This document shows positions 930 to 26,896 of a DNA stretch of 64,000 nucleotides, piece by piece. The translations under genes and the position numbers were made by a program. The stretch is from Bradyrhizobium sp. CCGB01 (GTDB lineage Bacteria; Pseudomonadota; Alphaproteobacteria; Rhizobiales; Xanthobacteraceae): the NCBI RefSeq assembly GCF_024199795.1, contig NZ_JANADK010000001.1, positions 1,984,001-2,048,000 on the forward strand, read 5' to 3'. Position 1 is the first letter of the stretch. The number at the start of each line of letters is the position of its first letter. A model generated the notes under the pieces. It was not told the origin of the DNA. It saw only the letters and a program-made list of their open reading frames with translations, and made no database searches.

Positions 930-1994
930 ATGGTGGCTCTGCAGAAGAGGGCGCTCCCGAACGGCAGTCTGACTTTGACCTCGCTTGGGCTCGGAACATC
1001 ACCTTTAGGCGGATGTGGTGTTCCGGTTAGCTTCGAGACCTTCGAGGCGGTCATCCTGAAGGCCTACGAGCAGGGCGTACGCTATTTCGATGTTGCTCCG
1101 CTCTATGGCCTCGGGAAGTCGGAGCATTTTCTCGGCCATGTTCTTCGCGTTCACGGTCTTCGTCCAGATGTCGTGGTGAGTACCAAGGCGGGCCGGCTCC
1201 TGAAGCCAGCAAGCCGTTCAAAGCGCGCCGAAAGTCTCTTTGGGATCAATTGGGTTGATCCGCTGCCCTTCGTCGACGAGTACGATTACAGCTACGACGG
1301 CATCATGCGGTCCTTCGAGGATAGTCAGCAGCGCCTTGGTCTCGACCACATCGACATTCTTTTCCTGCACGACGTGAGCGGAGTGTGGCACCAGGAGAAG
1401 TATCCCCTCTATCTAGGGCAACTCCGCGAGAGCGGATACCGGGCGTGCGACGAACTCCGTCGCTCGGGAGCGGTCAAGGCGATTGGTCTCGGTGTAAACG
1501 AGACGGCTTCAGTGCTCGAAGTGGCGGCCGAATTCGATCTCGACTGCTCGCTCGTGGCAGGGCGGTACACGCTCCTGAATCATGCTCCGTTGACTGACTT
1601 CTTCCCCGAGGCCCGACGTCGCGGCATCGGCATCATCGCCGGCGGCGTGTACAATTCGGGGATCCTGGCTGAGGGTAGTCAAGGTAACGCCCTAACGCGG
1701 ACCTACGATTACCAGACGGCTCCCGAATCCATCGTGCGGCGCGTAAAAGCGCTGGAAGCTGTCTGCGAACGTCACAACGTCGTGCTCGCCCATGCGGCTT
1801 CCCAGTTTGTCTATGCGCATCCTGCCGTGACGTCGGTGGTTCAGGGCGCGCTCACGACGTCGCATGTGGAGCAGAACGTCGCCTTGATATCGGCGCCAAT
1901 TCCTCAGGCGTTCTGGATGGACCTCCGGAGCAAAGGCCTGATTCCTGAAGAAGCCCCGCTCCCGGATCAGGGCTCCCTGGCCCTGTCCGGCTGA
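930..1994 (+). CDS. Aldo/keto reductase, aldose 1-dehydrogenase (L-fucose dehydrogenase-like) type, copy 1
   Basis: A 354-residue AKR-fold protein. The catalytic tetrad is visible: Asp54 and Tyr59 in the YFDVAPLYG segment, Lys86 in STKAGR and His147 in LFLHDV. The length and the long WVDPLPF insertion match the D-threo-aldose/L-fucose 1-dehydrogenase branch, which oxidises the anomeric carbon of aldoses with NAD(P)+ to give lactones; the specific sugar is not predictable. It is followed after 28 bases by a close paralogue (2023-3072) that aligns without gaps through the tetrad. With the upstream sugar-binding protein and the downstream metallo-hydrolase this suggests uptake, oxidation and lactone opening of an aldose. 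No lesion is seen. Confidence 0.85.
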   Translation: MVALQKRALPNGSLTLTSLGLGTSPLGGCGVPVSFETFEAVILKAYEQGVRYFDVAPLYGLGKSEHFLGHVLRVHGLRPDVVVSTKAGRLLKPASRSKRAESLFGINWVDPLPFVDEYDYSYDGIMRSFEDSQQRLGLDHIDILFLHDVSGVWHQEKYPLYLGQLRESGYRACDELRRSGAVKAIGLGVNETASVLEVAAEFDLDCSLVAGRYTLLNHAPLTDFFPEARRRGIGIIAGGVYNSGILAEGSQGNALTRTYDYQTAPESIVRRVKALEAVCERHNVVLAHAASQFVYAHPAVTSVVQGALTTSHVEQNVALISAPIPQAFWMDLRSKGLIPEEAPLPDQGSLALSG

Positions 1995-2022
1995 ACTTCC
2001 AAGACAAGCAAGGAGAAGAGCG

Positions 2023-3072
2023 ATGATTTCGCTTGAAAGACGAACTCTAGGCCGCGCTAAAGTGACCGTCACGTCCGCGGGGCTTGGGACGGTGCCTCTT
2101 TCCGGGTTCAATGTCGGAGTGCCCTATTCCGAATTCGAAGCTGTCGTTAAAGCAGCCTTCGATCTCGGGGTGCGCTACTTTGACTGCGCGCCGATGTATG
2201 GTCTTGGAAAGGCCGAGCATTTCCTCGGTCGCGCTCTCCGCGACCTCAGTATCCGAGATCAGGTCGTCGTGAGCACGAAGTGCGGCCGAGTGCTCAAGCC
2301 AGCCAGCCGGACACCGAAGCTTGACACAGTGTACGGCATCGAATGGGTTGATCCGTTCCCGTTTAGAGACACGTATGACTATACGTACAACGGGGTGATG
2401 CGCTCGTTCGAGGACAGTCAGCAGCGTTTGGGCCTCGACTATATCGATGTGCTGCTGGTCCACGACGTCGGGTGCGCATGGCATGGCGATCAAGCAGAAT
2501 TTTACTGGAACCAGCTCCGCGAGAGCGGATACCGTGCCCTCGAGGAGCTGAAGAGCTCGGGTGCTATCGGTGCGGTAGGGTTAGGAGTAAATGAGACCGA
2601 ATCCGTTGTTGGAGTAGCGCGCGAATTCCCGATTGACTGCGCGTTGATCGCAGGTCGATACACGCTTCTCAACCATGCACCACTCGATGGGCACTTCGAC
2701 GAACTGCAGTCCCGGAATGTCTCGGTGATTGCGGGCGGCATCTACAATTCGGGCATCTTGGCCGCTGGATCGAAGGCGGCAGCCTCGACCTATGACTACC
2801 AGCGGGTACCCAGCGCTGTCCTGGAGCGCGTCCGTTCAATCGAGGAAGTTTGCGAACGACACGGTGTTGATTTGCCGACCGTCGCGACGCAGTTCGTGCA
2901 AGCGCACCCCGCCGTCGCCACCGTGGTTCAGGGCGCGAAGTCGACAAGTGAGGTTACCCAGAATGTCCGCGCTGTCTCGGCGCCGATACCCGCTTCTCTC
3001 TGGCAGGACTTGAGGGCCGTCAAACTGATCCCATCGAATGCTCCGGTTCCTGAAGGCGAGCAATCCTCGTGA
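2023..3072 (+). CDS. Aldo/keto reductase, aldose 1-dehydrogenase type, copy 2
   Basis: A 349-residue tandem paralogue of the preceding gene, preceded by an AAGGAGAAGAGCG ribosome-binding stretch. The tetrad falls at the same residue numbers (Asp54, Tyr59, Lys86, His147) and the MRSFEDSQQRLGLD and GRYTLLNHAPL blocks are shared, yet the two differ widely elsewhere, so this is an old duplication and the copies may prefer different sugars or anomers. The stop codon overlaps the next start by four bases (GTGA), implying translational coupling. Family knowledge gives an NAD(P)-linked aldose oxidation to the lactone; substrate unknown. Confidence 0.85.
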   Translation: MISLERRTLGRAKVTVTSAGLGTVPLSGFNVGVPYSEFEAVVKAAFDLGVRYFDCAPMYGLGKAEHFLGRALRDLSIRDQVVVSTKCGRVLKPASRTPKLDTVYGIEWVDPFPFRDTYDYTYNGVMRSFEDSQQRLGLDYIDVLLVHDVGCAWHGDQAEFYWNQLRESGYRALEELKSSGAIGAVGLGVNETESVVGVAREFPIDCALIAGRYTLLNHAPLDGHFDELQSRNVSVIAGGIYNSGILAAGSKAAASTYDYQRVPSAVLERVRSIEEVCERHGVDLPTVATQFVQAHPAVATVVQGAKSTSEVTQNVRAVSAPIPASLWQDLRAVKLIPSNAPVPEGEQSS

Positions 3073-24803: not shown

Positions 24804-25605
24804 CAATCAAACGTCGGAGTTCTTAGTCCTTTCCCAAGCTTCGTGTTGGATCGCATCTATGGCGCTTACTGGCTGACTGGCTTGTACATTTCGCACCGCG
24901 CATCCACGACGCTGACATTTTCCATCGGCACAGACAATGCGTATATCGGTCACGCCTATGATTATTGTCACGGGTCAGGAGAGCACCCCGTCCGCCACCA
25001 GATCGTCGATATCATCGAGCCAACACGGCCGCTCACGAAGCTAGTGCTGCAGACCGCATCTGGAGAAACGGTTCGGCCCTGTCTCCTCGGAGCTCTCGTA
25101 AGCTATCCTTATCTGCGAAGCAGCGACCATCATTGACGGATGGACGCATTAGCTCACAATTGCCGTGGTCGGCCGCTACCAGGAACGCGCCTCCTGCGGC
25201 GCAGTCCCCTCAGCGATGCGGCTAGTCTGGCTGCCAGGTCGACACTATGCCATGGAGGATCGAGAAAGTCGCCGCTCTAGCCGAAGGCAAAGGGCCGATC
25301 TTCCCGGATGTCCGTGCAGAATCGCTCAGACCTATGGGAGAGGCGTCTCGGACAAATTCATCGCTCCCCACCGTGACCTCGGAATTTCCATCGGCCCGGC
25401 GGGCAAGCCGCCAGTCCGTTCCGTGCGAAGGAAAGTGTAGCATACGAGCGACGGAAGCCCTCGAAATTGGCTGTGCGCTTGCCCGACGGCTTCGTCGGCT
25501 GACTCCTCCGTCAACCTCATGCTTGAAGATCACGAGCATCACCGGGCGGTAGTGCGTCATTCAAAGACACCCACCTAGTTTGATGACATAGAAGTGCGCA
25601 AACCT
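24804..25605 (+). other. Gap without a recognisable gene
   Basis: About 800 bases between the broken glcF and the broken enolase. Several frames are open for 90-110 codons on both strands (for example 24843-25136 plus and 25222-25560 minus), but none has recognisable motifs or natural composition. I treat it as decayed sequence. Confidence 0.35.
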
Positions 25606-26896
25606 CTAATTCGAGGCCGAGCGGGTTGCAAGGGCCGATCGGCCAAGGAAACGGGCGCTTTGACCCAACTCCCGCTCAATCCGCAGGAGCTGGTTATACT
25701 TGGCCAGACGATCCGAACGCGAAAGGGAGCCGGTCTTGATCTGACCGCAGTTCGTCGCTATCGCCAGATCAGCTATGGTAGCGTCCTCCGTTTCGCCGGA
25801 ACAATGTGACATCACGCAGGCGTAGCCGGCGCGATGGGCGGTCTCAACCGCATCAAGCGTCTCCATCAAGGTCCCGATCTGATTGACCTTAACAAGGAGC
25901 GCGTTAGCTACTCCTCGCGCGATGCCCTGCTCCAACATAGCCCGGTTAGTCACAAACAGGTCGTCACCTACGAGCTGCACTTTTGATCCGAGCGAGCCGG
26001 TGAGAGCCAGCCATCCCTCCCAATCATTTTCGGCCATGCCGTCTTCGATCGACACGATTGGATAACGGGCGCACAGTTCCTCGTAGAGCCGCACCATGCC
26101 AGCCGCATCCATCGTTCGACCTTCGCCGGAGAGCTCATAGCGGCCATTCTTGAAAAGCTCGCTCGAGGCCGCGTCGAGGGCAAACACCACCTCGTCACCA
26201 ACCCGAAAGCCCGCCGCCTCCACGGCCTTGACTAGAAATGCAAGCGCCTGATCGGTGCTTGACAGATCGGGTGCGAAGCCGCCCTCATCGCCTACGTTCG
26301 TATTATGACCCGCATCTTTCAGCGCCTTCTTGAGGCTATGAAAGATTTCAGCGCCAATGCGCAGGCTGTCCGAGAATGTCTCAGCGCCGACTGGCATTAT
26401 CATGAATTCCTGAAAGTCGATGGCGTTGTCCGCGTGGGCGCCGCCATTGATGACGTTCATCATCGGCAGAGGCAACACGCGGGCTCCAACGCCGCCCACG
26501 TATCGCCACAGCGGCTCGCCCAACTCATCTGCAGCGGCCTTTGCACATGCTAGGCTGACGCCGAGGATTGCGTTGGCCCCCAGGCGACTCTTGTTGTCGC
26601 TGCCATCGAGTTCACGAAGGATGCGGTCGGTCGCGATCTGGTCGAGCACGTTGTGGTTCTGGAGCGCGTCGGCTATCTCCCCATTCACGGCTGCTACTGC
26701 ATTCAGGACACCCTTACCGCCAAATCGGCGCCTATCGCCGTCCCGCAGTTCGACAGCTTCTCGCGTGCCTGTAGACGCTTCCGAGGGAACGGCGGCCCGC
26801 CCGCGCGCGCCGCTTTTGAGAACCGTCGACTTCGACCGTCGGATTCCCTCGGCTATCGAAAATCTCTTGTGCGCGCACACGGTCGATGATGGTCAT
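25606..26896 (-). pseudogene. eno: Enolase, frameshifted in the N-terminal domain
   Basis: Enolase on the minus strand. The true start is the ATG at 26896 (AAGGAGATGAGCG ahead of it), giving a normal [21 protein letters not shown] start; at about 26829 two bases are missing and the homologous frame continues with [18 protein letters not shown], then [43 protein letters not shown] and [16 protein letters not shown]. The span is 3n+1, consistent with a 2-base loss. A second abnormality is PSEASTG in place of the usual PSGASTG in the active-site loop. Enolase converts 2-phosphoglycerate to PEP, the substrate of the pyruvate kinase in the operon at 14.6 kb. Confidence 0.88.

Follow-up and report, generated by a model that had tools for sequence, protein, structure and literature searches.

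Gene layout of the cluster

The window analysed here is a stretch of 64,000 nucleotides from Bradyrhizobium sp. CCGB01 (positions 1984001-2048000 in a genome of one contig, 9.3 Mb long, whose proteins have their closest named relatives in Bradyrhizobium). It carries a gene for a RuBisCO-like protein (RLP), one of three RuBisCO-family genes in the genome, the others being a form I enzyme and a second RLP, and we read the surrounding cluster as a pathway for a branched aldonate in which a short-chain dehydrogenase/reductase (SDR) takes part. An earlier note, made from the sequence alone, had described an RLP gene at 8069 overlapping a DUF1537 kinase gene and followed by a tripartite ATP-independent periplasmic (TRAP) transporter, an SDR and a pyruvate kinase (pyk), with aldo/keto reductases (AKRs) and a metallo-beta-lactamase-fold hydrolase upstream. 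Pfam bears out both halves of this description, and the overlap of RLP and kinase measures 4 nt. The genes are as follows (evidence in brackets; carriers are the genomes that hold a window-type RLP, and G and L numbers are our handles for genomes and clusters).

9..866, plus strand: ATP-binding cassette (ABC) sugar-binding protein, Peripla_BP_4, first residues outside the window (Pfam)
930..1994, plus strand: AKR_a, aldo/keto reductase, candidate aldose 1-dehydrogenase (Pfam; in other carriers, 92-99% identical to the copy of the window or of pK07G)
2023..3072, plus strand: AKR_b, aldo/keto reductase (Pfam; kept in other carriers)
3548..4396, plus strand: metallo-beta-lactamase-fold hydrolase, candidate aldonolactonase (Pfam; lactonases among its PDB relatives)
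4434..5414, plus strand: AKR_d, aldo/keto reductase (Pfam; found in other carriers)
6940..7845, plus strand: LysR-family regulator (Pfam; synteny)
8069..9346, plus strand: RLP, 425 aa, both RuBisCO domains, active site E60/N123/S177/H327/S379 with K201-D203-E204 (Pfam, alignment)
9343..10728, plus strand: two-domain DUF1537 sugar-acid kinase, GTG start, 4-nt overlap with the RLP stop (Pfam, NCBIfam)
10753..12690, plus strand: TRAP DctQM, small and large permease fused (Pfam)
12732..13757, plus strand: TRAP binding protein DctP, closest solved relative PDB 4OAN (structure-database comparison)
13781..14566, plus strand: SDR dehydrogenase, proposed to make a 3-oxo acid in the stead of the putative oxidoisomerase ApnO (Pfam, identities, cluster exclusivity)
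14631..16046, plus strand: pyruvate kinase, the genome's second copy, 51% identical to the other (Pfam, identities)

Upstream of the window edge lie the start of the ABC binding protein, a permease, an ATPase and a GntR regulator.

The RuBisCO-like protein lies outside the OiaX class

By its sequence the RLP is a member of the DUF1537-linked group and not a methionine-salvage enzyme: the MtnW model TIGR03332 gives 169.2 bits where its cut-off is 513.6, which rules that identity out. The best NCBIfam model for the RLP is OiaX (NF042437, 477.9 bits) and for the adjoining kinase OiaK (NF042436, 441.1 bits), both below the cut-off of 700. This shortfall, together with the residue pattern described next, rules out an identification as OiaX by best model.

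Active-site positions, in RuBisCO numbering, were located through the motifs of the form I protein that this genome encodes. In an alignment of 61 rows, D60, G123, A177, Q327 and G379 are found in the 8 rows of the OiaX clade, while the other 52 RLPs carry E60, N123, S or N177, H327 and S379. The same division holds in 413 distinct RLPs, 13 with the OiaX residues and 400, the window RLP among them, with the other pattern, the only variation being G or C at 379. With E/N/S/H/S at the five class positions and about 44% identity to OiaX, the window RLP lacks all five OiaX-class residues and, by these criteria, is outside the OiaX decarboxylase class. Five residues that can be read from sequence thus separate a decarboxylase class of DUF1537-paired RLPs from a RuBisCO-like one, which should aid the sorting of a very large family; in the 8000 homologues that we scored, named proteins are mostly just 'ribulose-bisphosphate carboxylase large subunit', and of the 120 listed relatives of the clade linked to SDR and ApnO, 1 (P0229) is named '3-oxoisoapionate-4-phosphate transcarboxylase/hydrolase'.

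Strain BAA-1158 of Xanthobacter autotrophicus, which we take to be Py2 (G160; the first 3,000 bases of its second contig match CP000782.1 exactly), has one RLP at E 1e-100 or better, 52% identical to that of the window. The two active sites are identical at 20/20 checked positions, residues which are common to many RLPs of no assigned activity, so that the comparison excludes OiaX and does not single out OiaT. The X. autotrophicus RLP has been reported as a transcarboxylase/hydrolase in a review passage that gives two strains (Agrobacterium radiobacter K84 and X. autotrophicus) and two activities with no 'respectively', and which we take in that order (PMC6302742). Because the window RLP is not of the OiaX class and equals the X. 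autotrophicus RLP at these 20 positions, 3-phosphoglycerate is a well-supported prediction for its product and glycolate a plausible one. In quick trees the window RLP falls in a set of its own of 17 or 14 rows (SH-aLRT, an approximate likelihood ratio test, 98), with the X. autotrophicus RLP outside it. The placement among OiaT and OiaX members that the earlier note had proposed to examine has two sides: the residues are those of the X. autotrophicus RLP and not of OiaX, and the clade is a separate one. Rooting on form I was dropped since the outgroup branch is too long, hence no basal clade is named.

The RLP unit is conserved in order among its carriers

A window-type RLP (at least 89% identity) occurs in 8/195 genomes of the genus, the window's own included, and in 3/391 genomes of the family. 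Among 398 genomes of the phylum besides its own, 1 holds a remoter RLP of the window clade (63%), as do 5/299 of another family (67-71%); the remaining 292 genomes of the order of the 63% member gave 0/292. In all eight carriers the RLP, kinase, TRAP, SDR and pyruvate kinase genes stand in identical order, and the module of AKRs and hydrolase is present in 7/8, the contig of the eighth ending before it. Synteny that runs from the ABC transporter through to pyruvate kinase is also seen on a Bradyrhizobium elkanii plasmid (one of four plasmids with an 88% RLP) and in further Bradyrhizobium genomes, so that the grouping of RLP, kinase, TRAP, SDR and pyk goes beyond chance.

SDR and ApnO are near-exclusive in RLP clusters

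We scored 148 RLP clusters and kept 113, after dropping 10 near-duplicates (at least 97%) and 25 with a flank shorter than 6 kb; the latter include the window-clade clusters L182, L196, L197 and L207, of which L196 and L207 carry pyk. To call the genes of each cluster we used tblastn with reference proteins chosen by hand, those of the window and of the annotated plasmids themselves included. The ApnO query was the 'phosphogluconate dehydrogenase C-terminal domain' protein of apiose-type clusters, which we take to be D-apionate oxidoisomerase; ApnO, ApsD and ApnL are labels that we give to conserved proteins of those clusters.

The 101 non-OiaX clusters comprise 28 with the SDR only (7 of them closely related clusters of the window's genus), 54 with putative ApnO only, 18 with neither and a single one with both, from Cupriavidus pinatubonensis, which also has eno (the enolase gene) and pyk. 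The RLP tree shows 5 switches. Either pyk or eno is present in 11/28 clusters with the SDR and no ApnO, which represent few independent lineages, and in none of the 14 VOC-type clusters or of the 4 clusters with no SDR, ApnO or VOC protein. The OiaX-class clusters (n=12) likewise have no pyk or eno; 6 hold TIM and RpiB and 10 hold ApnO. TIM and RpiB occur in 0/28 SDR-type clusters, and the 101 non-OiaX clusters gave no TIM or RpiB at 50% identity or more, with one RpiB at 35% in L087. Around 26 SDR-type clusters, no further recurrent genes were found beyond families common to two loci.

Two window-clade RLPs, in L198 and L199, adjoin a putative ApnO, so the SDR is no fixed partner of this clade. 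That the enzyme preceding the RLP can be exchanged, ApnO for SDR, points to substrates beyond apionate and to a short list of acids.

L046, L113, L117, L123 and L125 have two SDR genes each, one 34-36% and one 72-73% identical to the reference SDRs, perhaps reflecting an extra redox step; in L046 it is the 34-36% gene that precedes the RLP. The genome of the window itself has a second RLP/DUF1537 cluster (L057, G000:C1:3615500-3635400) of VOC/TRAP/LacI type, whose RLP belongs to the SDR/ApnO-linked clade in a VOC-type setting and whose search match contains one in-frame TGA.

Pyruvate kinase, glycolate oxidase and enolase genes differ in their ties to the unit

Downstream of pyk the window contains the following.

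16047..21488, strand not assigned: pieces of a methyl-accepting chemotaxis protein gene, an SDR gene and two genes like dihydrodipicolinate synthase, outside the unit and not at this place in G1359 (Pfam, comparison with G1359)
21526..22260, plus strand: glcD, truncated (Pfam, comparison with G1359)
22257..23441, plus strand: glcE-like FAD-binding subunit (Pfam; 81-86% identical to the glcE that follows pyk in other carriers)
23444..24667, plus strand: glcF-like iron-sulfur subunit (Pfam; 84-86% in other carriers)
25606..26880, minus strand: enolase, second copy, 65% identical to the other, adjacent to the cluster without being conserved alongside it (Pfam, identities)

The earlier note had drawn pyruvate kinase, enolase and glycolate oxidase into one pathway with the RLP, as a fit too good to be chance. 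For pyruvate kinase this stands: it is kept beside the RLP in 8/8 carriers, and pyk or eno recurs in other SDR-type clusters. The pyruvate kinases of the clusters form two groups by identity, one from Methylobacterium, Azospirillum and the window's genus (72-74% between members from different RLP clades and 49-51% to the housekeeping copy) and one from Burkholderiales (60-71% among three); therefore pyk probably joined RLP clusters of this kind at least twice. For enolase the statement was too strong, since no such gene turned up in the downstream stretches examined in the 7 other carriers. The window enolase finds its best matches among plasmid records in Azospirillum, at 71%, and the genome holds one further enolase and one further pyruvate kinase. 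In Cupriavidus sp. KK10 an enolase gene does adjoin pyk.

The glcDEF genes that the note had placed downstream, together with the enolase, are there (GlcD/E/F-like genes at 21526-24667), and they follow pyk in 5/8 carriers: G369, G1408, G1359 and G1420 have them directly behind it, the window farther off. The gap between pyk and glcD is about 5.4 kb in the window, with gene pieces in it, and about 0.3 kb in G1359. The claim of a glycolate oxidase is partly supported, and that of an intact one in the window unsupported, its glcD being truncated. At a different locus the genome has a full-length glcD, 56% identical to the G1359 gene.

In L205 and L207 (G1409 and G1395) an otnC-like class II aldolase gene follows pyk, at the position of glcDEF in other carriers. 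Plasmid p2 of Cupriavidus pinatubonensis HN-2 (L007) has an RLP cluster with two enolases (98%), pyruvate kinase, an NADP-dependent glyceraldehyde-3-phosphate dehydrogenase and phosphoenolpyruvate carboxylase, and so bears much of lower glycolysis.

A proposed pathway for a C2-branched sugar acid

We lean towards a reading in which the cluster is a catabolic route for a C2-branched sugar acid, its RLP yielding 3-phosphoglycerate and a small acid, for which glycolate is the likeliest candidate. What the data show is gene content, synteny, active-site class, lack of the putative ApnO and the near-exclusivity of SDR and ApnO; the substrate and each of the reactions are inferred. The acid would enter through the TRAP transporter or, alternatively, would arise from an ABC-imported aldose, oxidized to the lactone by an AKR and opened by the metallo-hydrolase. 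The SDR would oxidize the C3 hydroxyl to give a 3-oxo acid, and the DUF1537 kinase would add a phosphate to the terminal hydroxyl. By our derivation, an RLP of this class should accept a 2-carboxy-2-hydroxy-3-keto acid with a terminal phosphate; it would cleave this 2-carboxy-3-keto phosphate, akin to the six-carbon intermediate of RuBisCO, into 3-phosphoglycerate and the small acid. Chemically, again as derived here, decarboxylation with re-carboxylation, or with O2, followed by cleavage would give 3-phosphoglycerate and glycolate. The former would reach pyruvate kinase with the help of the housekeeping mutase and enolase, the latter a glycolate oxidase. That the cluster encodes a RuBisCO-like sugar-acid pathway feeding glycolysis is very likely, and it perhaps feeds glycolate oxidation as well. 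Should the RLP act by hydrolysis of a 3-keto intermediate, the enzyme would be a living half of the RuBisCO reaction.

Several observations weigh against this pathway. Clusters with ApnO and no SDR, for which the same products are expected, have pyk or eno in 0/54, so that pyk may be the mark of another substrate or another product. The Fisher tests (p 1.5e-6 for pyk/eno with SDR versus with ApnO, and p 9e-12 for the mutual exclusivity of SDR and ApnO) ignore relatedness; on supported branches there are 3 independent pairs, for which the sign test gives p 0.25-1 with every difference in the same direction. Two SDR-type genomes, G1161 and G1086, hold an ApnO elsewhere, so the exclusivity is one of clusters and not of genomes. 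Both family models for the RLP and the kinase fall short of their cut-offs, and the 20 active-site residues leave OiaT one option among others. Finally, glcDEF was not found after pyk in G334, G1409 and G1395 (3/8 carriers), the window glcD lacks about 0.75 kb of the G1359 sequence and encodes 244 aa with the FAD-binding domain only, and enolase was seen in 0/7 other carriers in the downstream stretches examined.

As to the substrate, D-hamamelose is a better candidate than apiose by the comparisons at hand, with hamamelose or hamamelonate leading and apionate second. An RLP of Ochrobactrum anthropi takes part in D-hamamelose assimilation and gives 3-phosphoglycerate and glycolate, according to a citing passage (PMC8914248), and a review counts it, in the passage concerned, among RLP oxygenations (PMC10176493). 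The hamamelose route, as derived here, would call for four activities (aldose dehydrogenase, lactonase, acid dehydrogenase and kinase), and the window has a candidate gene for each.

A narrower form of our proposal, overlapping with it, makes the RLP an oxygenase: 3-oxo-hamamelonate would lose CO2, and the resulting pentulose 5-phosphate would react with O2 to give glycolate and 3-phosphoglycerate. We hold it possible, on the unlikely side. The published title and the citing passage on the D-hamamelose pathway speak for it, as do the candidates for aldose dehydrogenase, lactonase, SDR and kinase, which would cover the route, and the glcDEF genes after pyk in five carriers. The order of steps, on the other hand, is our derivation, and the O. 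anthropi RLP does not appear in the matches listed (60 plasmid records, all but 4, and 120 proteins, a minor part of those hit).

The start from apiose or apionate that the earlier note had favoured fares worse. In such a route the SDR would be a non-homologous D-apionate oxidoisomerase acting before OiaK- and OiaT-like steps, and we consider it unlikely, even with an active-site class equal to that of the X. autotrophicus RLP, AKRs and a hydrolase that could yield apionate, and the ApnO neighbours in L198 and L199, by which the clade seems able to use 3-oxo-isoapionate 4-phosphate. Putative ApnO was absent in 8/8 carrier genomes, whereas the same query was positive in 7/7 other genomes searched alongside, G1161 and G1086 among them. 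The transporters also differ. The ABC binding protein of the window is 27-32% identical to six from apiose-type clusters, which are about 70-97% identical among themselves (a seventh, from Shinella L058, is 20% identical to the window's and about 25% to the six). The DctPs of the SDR- and VOC-type clusters compared, the window's included, form one family (at least 46%), whereas those of three ApnO-type clusters are 23-32% identical to this family and 26-28% to the window DctP. The SDR-type genome G1086 bears a DctP of the ApnO-type kind. As for PDB 4OAN, the closest solved relative of the window DctP, its ligand is reported to have been modelled as acetolactate.

More speculatively still, SDR-type RLP clusters could serve to break down hamamelonate or 2-carboxy-D-arabinitol, whose carbon skeleton is that of the nocturnal RuBisCO inhibitor of plants, which is plentiful in legumes; we regard this as decidedly improbable. 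Oxidation of 2-carboxyarabinitol at C3 by the SDR and phosphorylation at C5 would give 3-keto-2-carboxyarabinitol 5-phosphate, which is RuBisCO's six-carbon intermediate minus one phosphate. The RLP would then run the second half of the RuBisCO cycle only, hydrolysing this compound to glycerate and 3-phosphoglycerate or, if it decarboxylates and uses O2, giving glycolate and 3-phosphoglycerate. If true, a symbiont of legumes would be using a relative of RuBisCO to live on an inhibitor of RuBisCO. Least probable of all is that the RLP merely decarboxylates a 3-oxo acid phosphate to a ketose phosphate, as OiaX would, the pyruvate kinase being there by coincidence: OiaX is the top NCBIfam model, but at a score under its cut-off and about 44% identity, the five class residues (13 vs 400 sequences) are lacking, and TIM and RpiB, enzymes that would suit a tetrulose phosphate, are found in none of the 28 SDR-type clusters versus 6/12 OiaX clusters.

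Neighbouring genes

Two further genes lie between the upstream module and the RLP gene or within that module.

3069..3551, plus strand: 160-aa protein, no Pfam family (homologue search: 14 matches, named ones all Bradyrhizobium)
5903..6781, minus strand: beta-keto acid cleavage enzyme (BKACE), divergent (Pfam PF05853; kept with the cluster in other carriers)

Neither Pfam nor its 14 homologues gave a function for the 160-aa protein. The BKACE gene was absent from the gene list of the earlier note. A second, partial BKACE gene lies at 27592-28305, followed by a malate/L-lactate dehydrogenase-family gene at 28302-29336. A BKACE with at least 60% identity to a reference is found near 11/113 RLP clusters, 7 of the 11 in the window's genus; two Azospirillum matches in this count are reference proteins or near copies of them. 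The metallo-beta-lactamase-fold hydrolase gene is present in 7/113 clusters, all 7 of the window's genus. A tRNA-Val (cac) gene at 54957-55031 on the minus strand could mark an island boundary.

Comparison with known systems

Among the literature matches listed, where subscription papers are mostly outside coverage, no title or abstract deals with SDR-type RLP clusters. The cluster looks like a variant of known RLP pathways with an ordinary dehydrogenase in another enzyme's usual place. With the OiaK/OiaT branch of D-apionate catabolism it has in common the expected products, 3-phosphoglycerate and glycolate; clusters of that branch hold a putative ApnO, which the window cluster lacks, and the RLPs, 52% identical, lie in separate clades. 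The DUF1537 kinase and an RLP of equal active-site class are also common to both, as far as the X. autotrophicus RLP is described in the review (Carter et al. 2018, via PMC6302742). With the D-hamamelose pathway of O. anthropi (Kim, Lim and Lee 2018) the cluster would have in common the RLP step and the conversion of a C2-branched aldose to 3-phosphoglycerate and glycolate, while the make-up of AKR, metallo-hydrolase, TRAP and pyk in the window may differ.

The OiaX branch of Rhizobium and Sinorhizobium also has an RLP adjoining a DUF1537 kinase, with about 44% RLP identity, but differs by the five active-site changes, by TIM and RpiB in 6/12 clusters and by ApnO in 10/12. The clusters of VOC, TRAP, RLP and DUF1537 genes, one of which is L057 in the same genome, have the DctP family and the kinase-RLP pair in common with the window; they differ in a VOC protein in place of the SDR, in mostly N at position 177, as in the RLP structure 3NWR, and in pyk or eno in 0/14.

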